Assembly (NCBI GenBank): GCA_027487435.1
Contig: JAIYDP010000497.1
Span: forward strand, 30,137 to 94,136
Source: Verrucomicrobiaceae bacterium
Lineage (GTDB): Bacteria; Verrucomicrobiota; Verrucomicrobiia; Verrucomicrobiales; Akkermansiaceae
Direction: 5' to 3'
DNA: 64,000 nucleotides
The position numbers were made by a program, and so were the translations under genes. The notes beneath the pieces are model-generated. The model saw only the letters and a program-made list of their open reading frames with translations. It made no database searches and had not been told where the DNA came from. How positions within the stretch are numbered: position 1 is the stretch's first letter; every line of letters begins with the position of its first letter. Of this stretch, positions 4,682 to 64,000 are shown in pieces.

Positions 4682-6169
4682 ATGGCACATCACCACGTTA
4701 CATCCCACGATATCCCAGTCAACGGCGAGCACCTCGATGCTTCCAAGATCGCGAAATACAAAACGTTTGCTCTAGCGGTTTTGTTGATCGGCGGCTTGGC
4801 GAGTTGCTACTTGCTCTTTTTTACAGGCAACAAATCTTGGACAGCGACATATTCCTATTCTTGGGTTTTTGCACTGTTCTATTTCTTCACCATCGCGGTC
4901 GGCGGTTGCTTTTGGACACTACTTCACAATGTTTCCAACTCGGGATGGGGCACCAGCGTGCGTCGCACCATGGAAAACCTCGGGTCAGTTTTCCCATGGC
5001 TATCGATTTTTGCCATTCCTTTGCTTTGCCCAAGCGTGCAGCAATATCTCTTTGAGTGGATGAATTTGCATCGTGCTTCGATCGATTCCGCCAATGCTCA
5101 TGGTGCTAACATTTCTGCGATGAGCATGATTACCGATTGGCTCGGCGGCGCATGGAATTGGGTTGTCAATGGCGGAAAATTTCTCTCATGGGCGTTGACC
5201 GGCACGGGTGAGTTTGTTCCCTCGGCTCACGAGCAAGAAGTTGCCACGGCTCTGCACCACGACCACCAGCACTTGCTCTACAATAAGCACTGGTTCATGA
5301 ATCTGCCGTTCTGGTATTTCCGCAACATCATGTTCTTTGTGGCGCTGGGATATGCCATCGTACGTTTGCGCAAGCTCTCGACCATGCAAGATACCGACCC
5401 GAATCCTGGCACGGTGCATTATTTCAAAGCGCGTCGCGCTTCGGCGGCTTTCTTGCCCATCCTCGCTCTGACGGTGACGTTTGCTGCTTTCGATTGGGTC
5501 AAAGGTCTCGATTACAAGTGGTTCTCGACCATGTATGGTGTTTACATTTTTGCGGGATGCGCGATCAATTCGATGGCGGTCATCATCATTTCCGTGACTT
5601 TGCTTAAGCGTGCAGGCTACCTCAAAAACGTCGTCTCGCCCGAGCATTTCCACATCAAAGGCAAGCTGCTTTTCGCCTTCACCGTGTTCTGGGCCTATGT
5701 GACATTCTCGCAATATTTCCTCATCTGGTATGCCAACATCACCGAGGAAACGATTTATTTCATCAAGCGCAATACCGGTTCTTGGAACGTGGGCAGCACT
5801 TGTTTGACCATCTTCCACTTCGTGATTCCGTTTGTGGTGCTGCTTCAACAGTGGTTGAAGAAAAAACCGCTGTTGCTTAGCTCGGTGGCGGTTTACATGC
5901 TCTTGGTCCACATTCTCGACATCTACATCGCGGTGATCCCTGAACGTGGTTTTTCTCTCGGTAACATCCAAATCAAAGATGGATTCGACGGCGTGAAAGA
6001 ATTTGGAAAAGTCAGCGCTTCCATCGCAGGTGCCTGGATGGGCGACATACTCGCCTTCGTGACCATCGGTGCAGGTTTCATTTTCTTCTATCTTCGTTCT
6101 TTCACGCAGCACGCGCTCTACCCACATCGTGATCCGCGCATTCTTGAATCCGCCAATCTTTCGAACTAA
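4682..6169 (+). CDS. actF: ActF-like quinol:cytochrome c oxidoreductase membrane subunit
   Basis: Polytopic membrane protein in the position of ActF after ActE; typical length and sequence. Confidence 0.88.
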   Translation: MAHHHVTSHDIPVNGEHLDASKIAKYKTFALAVLLIGGLASCYLLFFTGNKSWTATYSYSWVFALFYFFTIAVGGCFWTLLHNVSNSGWGTSVRRTMENLGSVFPWLSIFAIPLLCPSVQQYLFEWMNLHRASIDSANAHGANISAMSMITDWLGGAWNWVVNGGKFLSWALTGTGEFVPSAHEQEVATALHHDHQHLLYNKHWFMNLPFWYFRNIMFFVALGYAIVRLRKLSTMQDTDPNPGTVHYFKARRASAAFLPILALTVTFAAFDWVKGLDYKWFSTMYGVYIFAGCAINSMAVIIISVTLLKRAGYLKNVVSPEHFHIKGKLLFAFTVFWAYVTFSQYFLIWYANITEETIYFIKRNTGSWNVGSTCLTIFHFVIPFVVLLQQWLKKKPLLLSSVAVYMLLVHILDIYIAVIPERGFSLGNIQIKDGFDGVKEFGKVSASIAGAWMGDILAFVTIGAGFIFFYLRSFTQHALYPHRDPRILESANLSN

Positions 6170-60311: not shown

Positions 60312-60435
60312 CCTCCCACCCTCATCGCCAACGGTGAAAGCTAAAACAACCAACCAATACATCCCCTCGCAATCTCACCACCCGTCATGACGAAAAAAGT
60401 GACGGTTCCTTACCTATGTGCAAATTCCTCGATGA

Positions 60436-60870
60436 GGCGTCGCGTAAAAAGACAAGCCTCACGCGATTACGCCCCTAGGGACGCAATGGGTTGCGTGTGG
60501 GTTGTTCCCAAGGTTTCACCGTGGGCTGAAATGAAGCGTCCCAACGGGACGTTTATCAAAGCCCGCGGAGTAACCGTGGGTTCTTCACCCCTCGTAATAC
60601 CATCGGCGTCCCAACGGGACGTTTCATCAAAGCCCACGCAGCAACCTTGGGTTCTTGATCCCTCGTAATACCAGCGGCGTCCCAACGGGACGTTTTATCA
60701 AAGCCCACGGAGCAACCGTGGGTTCTTGATCCCTCGTAACACCAGCGGCGTCCCAACGGGACGTTTCATCAAAGCCCACGGAGTAACCGTGGGTTCTTCA
60801 CCCCCCCGTAACACCATCGGCGTCCCAAAGGGCGTAATCGCGTGAGGCGAAGCCTCTTTACGCGACTCAC
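60436..60870. repeat. 71-bp palindromic tandem array bounded by ~40-bp inverted repeats
   Basis: Units starting CGTCCCAACGGGACG at 60537, 60607, 60678, 60749 and a degenerate one at 60821; perfect 19-bp inverted repeat 60456-60474 / 60830-60848. Confidence 0.9.
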
Positions 60871-60994
60871 GTTTATTAAAAAAACCTTGTAACATCGCCA
60901 AAATCATCCAACCTCGCCTCGTCCATGATTACCGTGATATCACCTTGCGGGTGGATACGAATAAATTCTGTTCTGTAAATAAAGAAGAATCCTC

Positions 60995-61348
60995 GTGAAG
61001 AGAGCCCTCTTAATGCTTATTGCCGTGATACTAGTCCTCAGCACAACGGGGGCTTGGTTATTATATAGCACTGCACATACGATTAAGGAACTTGACAGGA
61101 ACTACCAACTTACTGAGAAGGGAATGTCTAAAGCTCAAGTCGAAGGACTAATGGGACAGAATGGCAAATGGCTAATTCCCGACCAAGATCCGCTGGGTTT
61201 CTGGGATGAAGTTCGGATGCTTGATTCAGAGAGAGCACAGATTCATTCCTCAGTGAGCTATACAGTGGATGCTTTTTTTCTGCAAATTACATTTGAATTT
61301 TCGTTTAGCGAAGATGGCAAGCTAATCGGTCGGCACACATACGACTAA
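60995..61348 (+). CDS. Hypothetical protein (cassette-like ORF 1)
   Basis: ORF starting GTG with N-terminal TM; followed by attC-like element. Confidence 0.65.
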   Translation: MKRALLMLIAVILVLSTTGAWLLYSTAHTIKELDRNYQLTEKGMSKAQVEGLMGQNGKWLIPDQDPLGFWDEVRMLDSERAQIHSSVSYTVDAFFLQITFEFSFSEDGKLIGRHTYD

Positions 61349-61412
61349 TATATTGATCTTAATAATTTATGGATCTGTGCGCCGTAACCCTACTAACTGT
61401 AAACCAGAACTT

Positions 61413-61500
61413 GCAGAATAAGCCATGCGTGGCAACGCCTATCACCGCGTCAGATGAATTTCGAGCTTGATTCCGGCTTGCCACCATTCTAACATTGGGC
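61413..61500 (+). other. attC-like element A
   Basis: GCAGAAT...ATTGGGC bounded; ATG of next ORF 6 bp after the right end; internal GCGTGGCAACGCCTATCACCGCG resembles element E. Confidence 0.55.
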
Positions 61501-61505
61501 AAGAA

Positions 61506-61841
61506 ATGAAGATAGATCAATCCAATGCTTTAAAGATCGCCAGTATTGGGGCGGCTCTATGGTGGATCATCTTTGGACTTCCTGCCTTGAACGATATTTT
61601 TTCCGCCAATCACAGCGACAAGCGATATATCTTCGCACTCGCGATGTTGTTTGGGAGTTTTTGTGGTGTAGCATTCTACATTTGCATGATGCCATCAATG
61701 GTCAAGGCTGTGCGGAACGATTTTAGATTACACCCAGCTAGAACCAGTCTAATAACAGTATGGGCTATCCTACCTTTGCCTCCTATCCTATTTGCAAGCG
61801 CTATGATTTTCATGAAGATCTACGGAATAGGCAACGCATAA
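61506..61841 (+). CDS. Hypothetical membrane protein (cassette-like ORF 2)
   Basis: ORF with TM segments, start 6 bp after element A. Confidence 0.65.
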   Translation: MKIDQSNALKIASIGAALWWIIFGLPALNDIFSANHSDKRYIFALAMLFGSFCGVAFYICMMPSMVKAVRNDFRLHPARTSLITVWAILPLPPILFASAMIFMKIYGIGNA

Positions 61842-61848
61842 TGTAGAA

Positions 61849-61976
61849 GCCCAACAAGCCGCGCCGTGACACCCTCTACCAGTCGCCCTGTTTCGATGAT
61901 TTTCCGTAACTATAACACTAACCCCGTGAACCACCTCCGCTCCCGCTTCTAGTGCTGGATGTGCTCATCGTTCGAC
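61849..61976 (+). other. attC-like element B
   Basis: Left GCCCAACAAG, right CATCGTTCGACAAAGAAATG; 128 bp. Confidence 0.65.
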
Positions 61977-61982
61977 AAAGAA

Positions 61983-62627
61983 ATGAAGATCATCGTAATA
62001 GTAATCACTGTTTTTCTATTCAGCATTACCTCATACGCAGGCACGCATAGATATGAAGGAGGAGCGTTCTTTGTCACAGCCTTAAATCATCCTCTACTTG
62101 CCAAAGGCGAAGTTACTGCCGAGTACGCAGTGAGACCACCAGCTATGATGTGTGGAATTTTTGGCGTCTCTTCCGCTAGGATCACGGGTTTCAAGGAAGA
62201 ACTAAGATTGAAGGCAAGAGATTTTTTAGAGAAAGAAACTGGACCAGCATTGGCGATTTTCTTTAGCCCAGATAGAGCAAAATTATTTGAAGACTATCCC
62301 GAAGCAATGGTGAAACAACACGCATTTGCAGAAGAGTTGCCTCTGTTGATGACACTGGGCGATTCTAAGACAGAAACCTACGAATTCGCGATACTTACCG
62401 GCAATGGTTTTTTTGTCTTTAATGATGGCAAGTTTAGTAGATCATTCATGAAGGATTATGGGAATTGTCTTGATGGTCTATTGCGTTACACCGAGTATCT
62501 GCAAGACCCTAAAGAGGTTTTTTATCTGAGCCTTTGGGGTTGCCTAGAGCCCAAGGCGGTCGAACAAGGCGGCACTGGGCAACCCGCTACCCGCTCCGAG
62601 CCGAAGTCGGAGGGACGCTCCCGGTAG
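61983..62627 (+). CDS. Hypothetical secreted protein (cassette-like ORF 3)
   Basis: Signal peptide MKIIVIVITVFLFSITSYAGTHRY; stop lies inside element C. Confidence 0.65.
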   Translation: MKIIVIVITVFLFSITSYAGTHRYEGGAFFVTALNHPLLAKGEVTAEYAVRPPAMMCGIFGVSSARITGFKEELRLKARDFLEKETGPALAIFFSPDRAKLFEDYPEAMVKQHAFAEELPLLMTLGDSKTETYEFAILTGNGFFVFNDGKFSRSFMKDYGNCLDGLLRYTEYLQDPKEVFYLSLWGCLEPKAVEQGGTGQPATRSEPKSEGRSR

Positions 62628-62652
62628 GGGGTGCCAGGCCTCATCGTTCGCC
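62559..62652 (+). other. attC-like element C
   Basis: Left GTCGAACAAGGCGG, right CATCGTTCGCCAGAAAATG; central hairpin CTCCGA-gccgaag-TCGGAG and partial arm complementarity. Confidence 0.7.
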
Positions 62653-62657
62653 AGAAA

Positions 62658-63032
62658 ATGGATCCCATAACAAAGCCTGCTACCGTTCGATGCGCTGACG
62701 AGATGCATCGGATCTATTGGTCCGGCATCTGGCGGAAGACGTTTTTGATACTCATCGTGTGGGCCATTTTCTCCGCTATCGGGTGGGCTATTAATGCCGA
62801 ATGGCCGAAGTTTATTGGTTTGGTTACGATAGCCACGACTATCGTTGTTCCCCAAATTGTTAGAATTCATCGTGGATATACTAAGCAGATTTGTCCCTCG
62901 TGTGGTCAGGAAGTAGGAGGCTATGATTCGAGTGGGTCACCAATCTATTTGGTTTGCCGACACTGTGGAACAAGATCAGCAACAGACTGCGTGATTCACT
63001 ATGCTGGAGGTCCACCGTCTAAAATCGAATAA
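62658..63032 (+). CDS. Hypothetical membrane protein with zinc-ribbon-like Cys pairs (cassette-like ORF 4)
   Basis: CPSCGQEVGG...CRHCG; start 6 bp after element C. Confidence 0.65.
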   Translation: MDPITKPATVRCADEMHRIYWSGIWRKTFLILIVWAIFSAIGWAINAEWPKFIGLVTIATTIVVPQIVRIHRGYTKQICPSCGQEVGGYDSSGSPIYLVCRHCGTRSATDCVIHYAGGPPSKIE

Positions 63033-63042
63033 AATCCAAGAC

Positions 63043-63137
63043 GCCGAACCCCAAAGATAGGTTTGAGCGATAGCCTCAAACCTATCGGCTGTTGAACGAG
63101 CCCGGGTGCTACGGGGAGGCTGCTCTACGCGTTATGC
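63043..63137 (+). other. attC-like element D
   Basis: Left GCCGAAC, right GTTATGC; contains perfect hairpin GATAGGTTTGAG-cgatagc-CTCAAACCTATC. Confidence 0.5.
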
Positions 63138-63276
63138 GTTTTTATTTTAGCTCGCAGTAGCAACGATTTTTGAATGTATGGGCACTTGAAGATTCCAGTC
63201 GGGATGCTTTTTGGGTGCTTCTTGGTGCCTGTGATAAAAAAGTGACGGTTCCTTATCTATGACCTGCGCGGAGGGA

Positions 63277-63687
63277 TTATTTACGAAGTTGGCGTTTTAG
63301 TTTCTCAAGTTCGCGTTCTTGTTTCTTGCGTTCGGATTCGAGGGCGGCGCCGGCGCCGGGTGTGTTTTCCCAGACGAGTTTGTTCCCGTCCCAGACGGCG
63401 GCGTATTCGGTTTTCTCTTGCTCGCCGTCTTCGTTGGTGCTCGTTGCTTTGGAGAAGGCTTTGAGGTCCTTTTTAACAGGGCCTTGCCAGACTTTTTTGC
63501 CGTTGTAGGTGATGGTTCCTTTTCCGTTGATGACGGTGGTGGAGAGATTGGCCTCGGCGGCGTTCTGGTTGGCTTTGGCCTTGGCCTGGTCGATGAGGTC
63601 GGCTAGGTCGGGGATTGCGAGAGCGGAGTTGGTGATGCCGAGGGTAACGGTGAGGACAATGGCTTTGAGCGTTGAGATGTGTTTCAT
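63277..63687 (-). CDS. Small secreted hypothetical protein, opposite orientation inside cassette-like unit 5
   Basis: Signal peptide MKHISTLKAIVLTVTLGITNSALA; coherent ORF on minus strand. Confidence 0.65.
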   Translation of the reverse strand: MKHISTLKAIVLTVTLGITNSALAIPDLADLIDQAKAKANQNAAEANLSTTVINGKGTITYNGKKVWQGPVKKDLKAFSKATSTNEDGEQEKTEYAAVWDGNKLVWENTPGAGAALESERKKQERELEKLKRQLRK

Positions 63688-63831
63688 ATCAAGAGAAGAA
63701 ACGGTGGAGATGAGGGGGCTTGTCTGATAAAATTACTTTTTTTGGGAGAGGGGGTGAGGGGTTGACTCGCGATTGCCTAGGATGGGATCAAGCTGATTGG
63801 CGAATTCAAGGCCGTGCTCAGAAAACCAAAG

Positions 63832-63958
63832 GCACAACAAGGCGTGGGTGGGCAACCCGCTACCACGCTGCGAGTCGGAGATCGAAATCTGATGAGCACC
63901 CTTTACCTTGAATCGGACTGGCGCTCCCGCTAGTGCGGCCACCACTTCGACGTTCTGC
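63832..63958 (+). other. attC-like element E
   Basis: Left GCACAACAAGGCG, shared block GTGGGCAACCCGCTACC with element C, right GTTCTGC; 127 bp. Confidence 0.65.
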
Positions 63959-63966
63959 AAAAAAAT

Positions 63967-64000
63967 ATGAACCATATCAATCCAGTGCTTTTCCTCGATA
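63967..64000 (+). CDS. Start of another small ORF (MNHINPVLFLD...), truncated by window end
   Basis: ATG 9 bp after element E, same spacing style as the other units; frame open to window end. Confidence 0.4.
   Translation, partial: MNHINPVLFLD

Follow-up and report, generated by a model that had tools for sequence, protein, structure and literature searches.

An integron gene-cassette array headed by a dispersed attI copy, remote from its probable integrase, in an Akkermansiaceae genome

The Verrucomicrobiota are a listed integron phylum (PMC8618304). Integrons typically possess one attI near the integrase, and attI sites outside class 1 are not detected by IntegronFinder 2.0 (PMC9024848); in archaeal integrons attI likewise lies immediately beside intI (PMC9668308). 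Sedentary chromosomal integrons of the Vibrio cholerae type have one attI by one integrase and a single array. The system described here resembles this type in its intI, its attI, its long arrays of mostly unknown genes and its similar attC sites, but differs in having ~27 attI copies and many arrays for one intI.

Clusters of attC sites without a nearby intI are classed as CALINs (PMC9024848), the origin of which may lie in off-target insertion, intI loss or rearrangement (PMC8618304). In Xanthomonas, CALINs occur at seven loci, and the accessible part of that account reports no attI copy there (PMC12444791). The array studied here shares the lack of a nearby intI but begins at an attI copy; as IntegronFinder is blind to attI outside class 1, such headers would go unseen. 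Delta-attI cassettes of class 1 and 2 integrons contain displaced attI pieces able to recombine (PMC12901181), and are thus alike in using an attI away from its normal place. These are, however, mostly 14-18 nt remnants replacing attC within one array, whereas here long modules head arrays across the chromosome; the module in our window is at least 75 bp long and lies at the 5' end of the array, not in place of an attC at a cassette 3' end. Cassettes are also known to enter the chromosome at a distance from the integron, namely at attG sites (cited in PMC12901181 and PMC12444791), which are minimal non-attI targets; here the target is a conserved attI module cognate to the local intI. In the literature searched, which excluded subscription journals and preprints, no account of arrays headed by dispersed attI sites was found.

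The cassette array at the end of the window

The window, a 64-kb stretch of DNA (contig C61, positions 30137-94136), belongs to an Akkermansiaceae (Verrucomicrobiales) draft genome, G000, in 506 contigs with 82% completeness and 0.61% contamination. The genome measures 9.39 Mb, compared to 2.9-4.4 Mb among nine genomes of the same genus (G001-G009; ten genomes with G000), despite being only 82% complete. One of these relatives, G009, is 97% complete in 40 contigs; a closed genome from another family (G038) was also compared. The right end of the window coincides with the end of the contig (94,136 bp), which terminates 42 bp past the last attC, and the attI side of the array lies ~61 kb from the left window end.

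An earlier note had interpreted the right end of the window as an integron cassette array. Reading of the region confirmed that small ORFs alternate with palindromic spacers, and the core sequences and shared motifs that had been quoted are present. All five spacers (A to E) recur elsewhere in the genome, at 85 places at first pass. Bottom-strand folding energy, suggested as a check, was found not to be significant for single spacers alone (z -2.1 to +0.6), and covariation among copies was therefore used as evidence; a home-made stem scan was dropped as too noisy. To this end, 54 spacer copies were aligned and turned into a covariance model (R1). In its alignment 87% of cells are paired and compensatory changes occur in 17 of 23 pairs, with a covariation score of 0.456 as opposed to 0.118 when shuffled and at most 0.091 with the partner slid. 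The model matched four of the spacers, with E-values that are to be taken as rough: A (36 bits, E 1.8e-7), B (94 bits, E 1.4e-22), C (65 bits, E 4.3e-15) and E (46 bits, E 3.6e-10), the next-best places in the 64 kb being at chance level (E at least 0.5). Hence, four of the five attC-like elements proposed earlier display the R''/L''/L'/R' arrangement with a covarying hairpin, while D does not and is a different repeat. A first genome-wide scan with R1 gave at least 135 attC among the matches listed; across 722 kb of G000, R1 gave 181 matches at 180 distinct places on 37 contigs, which puts the genome total at 180 attC or more.

It had also been proposed that each unit starts with the complement of the left core (R'') of its own spacer. 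This is borne out by GTTCTGT/GCAGAAT (3/4), ATTGGGC/GCCCAAC and GTTCGAC/GTCGAAC and by the genome as a whole, but not by GTTATGC, which is no boundary. Over 158 neighbouring pairs in G000, 3.12 of the 4 variable positions agree, compared to 1.90 (sd 0.067) for shuffled pairs and a maximum of 2.15 in 20,000 shuffles, an excess of ~18 sd. Comparison of each R'' with the core at the same attC's own end gives 1.90, as expected. This genome-wide match is the footprint of integron cassettes. The window ends in a true array of integron gene cassettes, as supported by the attC covariation, by the ~180 attC in the genome and by a genuine intI on another contig.

The array is headed by an attI module (60875..60973, forward strand, as are all features below unless noted) that is matched by our attI model R2. 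This ~75-100 bp module is common to the intI-linked attI on contig C79 and ~25 further copies. The attI core lies at about 60929-60973, and the array starts at the G|TT cut after 60970. Cassette 1 (60971..61494) extends from TTCTGT to the 88-bp attC A (61413..61500), with its core GTTCTGT agreeing with R'' GCAGAAT at 3 of 4 variable positions; it contains a hypothetical 117-aa ORF with a hydrophobic N-terminal stretch (60995..61348). Cassette 2 (61495..61970; ATTGGGC against GCCCAAC, 4/4) contains an ORF for a hypothetical membrane protein of 111 aa (61506..61841) and the 128-bp attC B (61849..61976). In cassette 3 (61971..62646; GTTCGAC against GTCGAAC, 4/4), the 3' part of a hypothetical 214-aa ORF with a possible signal peptide (61983..62627) overlaps the 94-bp attC C (62559..62652).

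The cassette 4 region (62647..63952) possibly represents two fused cassettes, because its start GTTCGCC fits the GCCGAAC box of repeat D (3/4) better than the GCACAAC R'' of the 127-bp attC E (63832..63958; 1/4). It contains a 124-aa ORF with weak zinc-ribbon similarity, for which all Pfam matches are below cut-off (62658..63032), and, on the reverse strand and antiparallel to the array, a hypothetical 136-aa ORF with a possible signal peptide (63277..63687). The start of the next cassette, GTTCTGC with an ATG at 63967, is cut by the contig end (63953..64000). No Pfam or NCBIfam family was found above cut-off for the cassette proteins, and no Rfam family matched in the window. Positions 1-338 of contig C469 are a 96% identical copy of window positions 63662-64000, attC E included, and could have arisen by duplication of the cassette or stem from a variant strain.

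No TIGR02249 match was found in the 64 kb of the window, confirming the impression from the letters that no integrase is visible there. The earlier suggestion that the array either continues or is a CALIN can be refined: four attC are present with no intI nearby, and the window contains the array's 5' end, together with an attI that had been missed. With an attI but no intI at this end, the window array is a CALIN that has one of the dispersed attI copies at its head.

Integrase and attI copies in the genus

A single intI in G000 exceeds the TIGR02249 cut-off (C79:679-1947; 327 bits against a 265-bit cut-off). The encoded protein (422 aa) has SAM-like and catalytic domains; its N-terminal extension of ~105 residues bears no Pfam name. 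Such an extension is shared by verrucomicrobial IntI, the ORFs of which are mostly 410-500 aa long. The C79 attI, ...CCGTGATATCCGATCATGGGTGGATACGAATAAATTCTGTTC, is located 300 bp upstream of intI, divergent from it, and has its twin at 60929-60973 of the window, exactly at the cassette start. The window header is 77% identical to the intI-linked attI over ~108 bp, and 96% identical to a copy on C469 over 73 bp. Within G000, the module is a conserved stretch of ~75-180 bp ending at TACGAATAAATTCTGTT. In contigs from other Akkermansiaceae and Verrucomicrobiales, the pattern GATATNAC...TACGAATAAATACTGTT occupies the equivalent position next to intI. Because the same site adjoins intI in relatives, the shared module is attI and not a random repeat.

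Model R2 (44 nt) detects 27 copies in G000 and, in G001 to G009 in order, 5, 1, 8, 1, 7, 9, 2, 3 and 7, such that more than one attI is present in 8 of the 10 genus genomes. G009 has one intI and 7 attI across 7 contigs (a reversed-pattern control gave 0). In G000, most arrays with a 5' end inside the contig begin at an attI copy, and several single contigs each carry two or three; for a few arrays (e.g. C461, C310, C481) no attI was recognised at the start. A sigma-70 scan of the window header yielded no promoter match, and TTGACT-17-CACACT can be read in the headers of G038.

Among the ten genus genomes, an intI above cut-off was found in G000, G003, G004 and G009 only, one in each, with an additional fragment in G004. 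No intI was found at E 1e-40 in the other six, several of which have multiple attI, and hence some of the attI-headed arrays may be relics. G006, G001 and G005, with 9, 5 and 7 copies and no intI at this threshold, are near-complete genomes. In G041, from the same order, five intI and eight attI matches were found, and the arrays examined (L171, L172) begin at attI with matching cores.

Use and origin of the dispersed attI copies

In 15 of 23 attI copies in G000, the core pairs without mismatch with the R'' of the nearest attC downstream, compared to a mean of 1.3 and a maximum of 7 in 20,000 draws of random R''. This is as insertion by attI x attC recombination would predict. The cores vary between copies, so that cassettes must have been inserted separately at many of them and not carried along by duplication. 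Most attI-attC pairs in the relatives also match at 4/4. One attI-headed locus is common to G009 and G001, with flanking genes on both sides alike (81% identity), yet the cassettes between these flanks share almost no DNA apart from attC stretches. An empty counterpart of this locus (C7 of G009) was sought: G006 is without the flanking ORF and array, in G004 the ORF is followed by unrelated sequence, and neither gave a clean junction. At the window locus, sequence beyond topA shows no conservation in the nine relatives, none of which has an array next to topA.

The closed G038 genome also contains the classical, Vibrio-like form, with two large intI-attI arrays, in addition to one integrase-less array. 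Over 109 bp, the start of the latter shares 92.7% identity with an intI-linked attI at a distance of ~240 kb, and its core GTTGTGC pairs with R'' GCACAAC. Single attC at 1.72 and 1.59 Mb each have an attI-like site upstream.

The presence of one matching intI for ~27 attI copies suggests that a single enzyme supplies many separate arrays. We therefore regard it as likely, with good confidence, that the window holds a gene-cassette array on an attI remote from the integrase, and that one integrase, acting in trans, serves the many attI-headed arrays dispersed over the genome; its activity we infer from sequence patterns. In the proposed mechanism, the IntI encoded at C79:679-1947 would recombine circular cassettes with attI via the folded bottom strand of attC. 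Beside the intI-linked attI, ~26 more copies of the module would serve as sites, the window array beginning at one of them. Cassettes would enter these remote sites in trans, with every array growing from its own attI. The C79 enzyme presumably made the insertions and still acts, and the headers would carry a promoter. As G000 is incomplete (82%) and unusually large, a second intI may have escaped detection, or sequence from a related strain may be included.

Several observations bear on how the headers arose. The attI module of G009 (~175 bp) opens with the inverted repeat CGTTCGTATATCAG-N35-CTGATATACGAACG, followed by a leader and finally the attI core. The repeat is perfect and marks the left end of the module in G009 and G001 headers (e.g. 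L138, ~4700-4873); it is a possible regulator or integrase site. Two remote headers of G009 retain 5' intI pieces upstream (78 and 33 codons), indicating an origin from whole integrons. In G009, the intI-linked copy is near-identical to a remote copy from another contig for ~115 bp, while the flanks on either side differ; for the C79/C174 pair of G000, near-identity spans ~95 bp and similarity falls abruptly on both sides. Such short tracts suggest that remote sites are kept in step with the live attI. Furthermore, likeness between attI copies is 0.71 within and 0.50 between genomes, and the nearest neighbour of a copy is from the same genome in 40 of 47 cases. Taken together, duplication of intI-attI regions, loss of intI and later sequence exchange would fit the header copies best.

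The intI pieces in G009 are also what would be expected if each attI-headed array were a former complete integron minus its intI, filled by a local integrase with no action in trans, and the six genus genomes with attI and undetected intI fit this as well. We nevertheless consider such simple decay unlikely, since the ~95-115 bp of near-identity with abrupt drops indicates sites kept in step, and the stretches examined around the other attI copies of G000 contained no fragment of intI. The multiplicity of attI might instead be an effect of binning or assembly, contigs of pooled strains contributing one integron apiece; the 9.39 Mb in 506 contigs, far above the size for the genus, and the copy of the window end at the start of C469 would be in keeping with this. 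However, contamination is 0.61%, the two or three attI on single contigs mean that binning is not the sole cause, near-complete relatives of 4 Mb have 7-9 attI, and the closed G038 shows the same design, making this explanation very improbable.

Clusters of attC that lack an integrase are common, and one accepted origin for them is off-target insertion (PMC8618304), but the site at which the window array begins is a conserved attI copy and not just any GTT. Arrays throughout the genus are headed by this site, with a cognate form in G038, and an ordinary CALIN of off-target (attG) origin is thus extremely improbable here. The spacers are indeed repeats, but we give practically no credence to non-integron tandem repeats between small genes, an idea refuted by the own-core rule (~18 sd), the covariation, the intI and the attI.

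For the Verrucomicrobiales as a whole, we lean slightly towards an organisation of one integrase with many docking sites, in which attI-plus-leader modules would themselves be dispersed and copied around the chromosome, would exchange tracts with the intI-linked attI and would head many first-position arrays stocked in trans. If so, many CALINs would be explained as attI-headed satellite integrons, and activity of the sites would allow many cassettes to occupy the first, best expressed position simultaneously. That integrase-less clusters begin at cognate attI copies offers a directly testable CALIN origin. The design could be widespread and overlooked, because current software ignores attI outside class 1 (PMC9024848).

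Repeat D and other repeats near the array

Spacer D (63043-63137) was ruled out as a fifth attC, as R1 gives no match. It forms part of a repeat (63043..63160, at least 9 copies) in which a strong CCCCAAAGATAGGTTTGAG hairpin, with GATAGGTTTGAG...CTCAAACCTATC in the window copy, comes after an initial R''-like NNNGAAC box. Similarity among copies extends beyond GTTATGC, which is therefore no recombination boundary there. Copies often lie directly upstream of a true attC and have right ends truncated at varying points; the R''-like box agrees with the cassette start at 3-4 of 4 positions in only 4 of 8 copies. The GTTATGCGTTTTTATTTT at the end of the repeat looks like a terminator.

Upstream of the array, at 60530-60830 of the window, a ~65-bp unit that includes GCGTCCCAACGGGACGTTT and a CCCACGG...CCGTGGG hairpin is repeated in tandem. 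Adjoining these units are REP-like TCGCGTGAGGC..GCCT..ACGCGA palindromes, which are also found just upstream of many attI headers in G000. The sequence AAAAAAGTGACGGTTCCTTAYCTATG is present twice, upstream of the array (~60391-60417) and in the cassette 4 region (~63236-63262).
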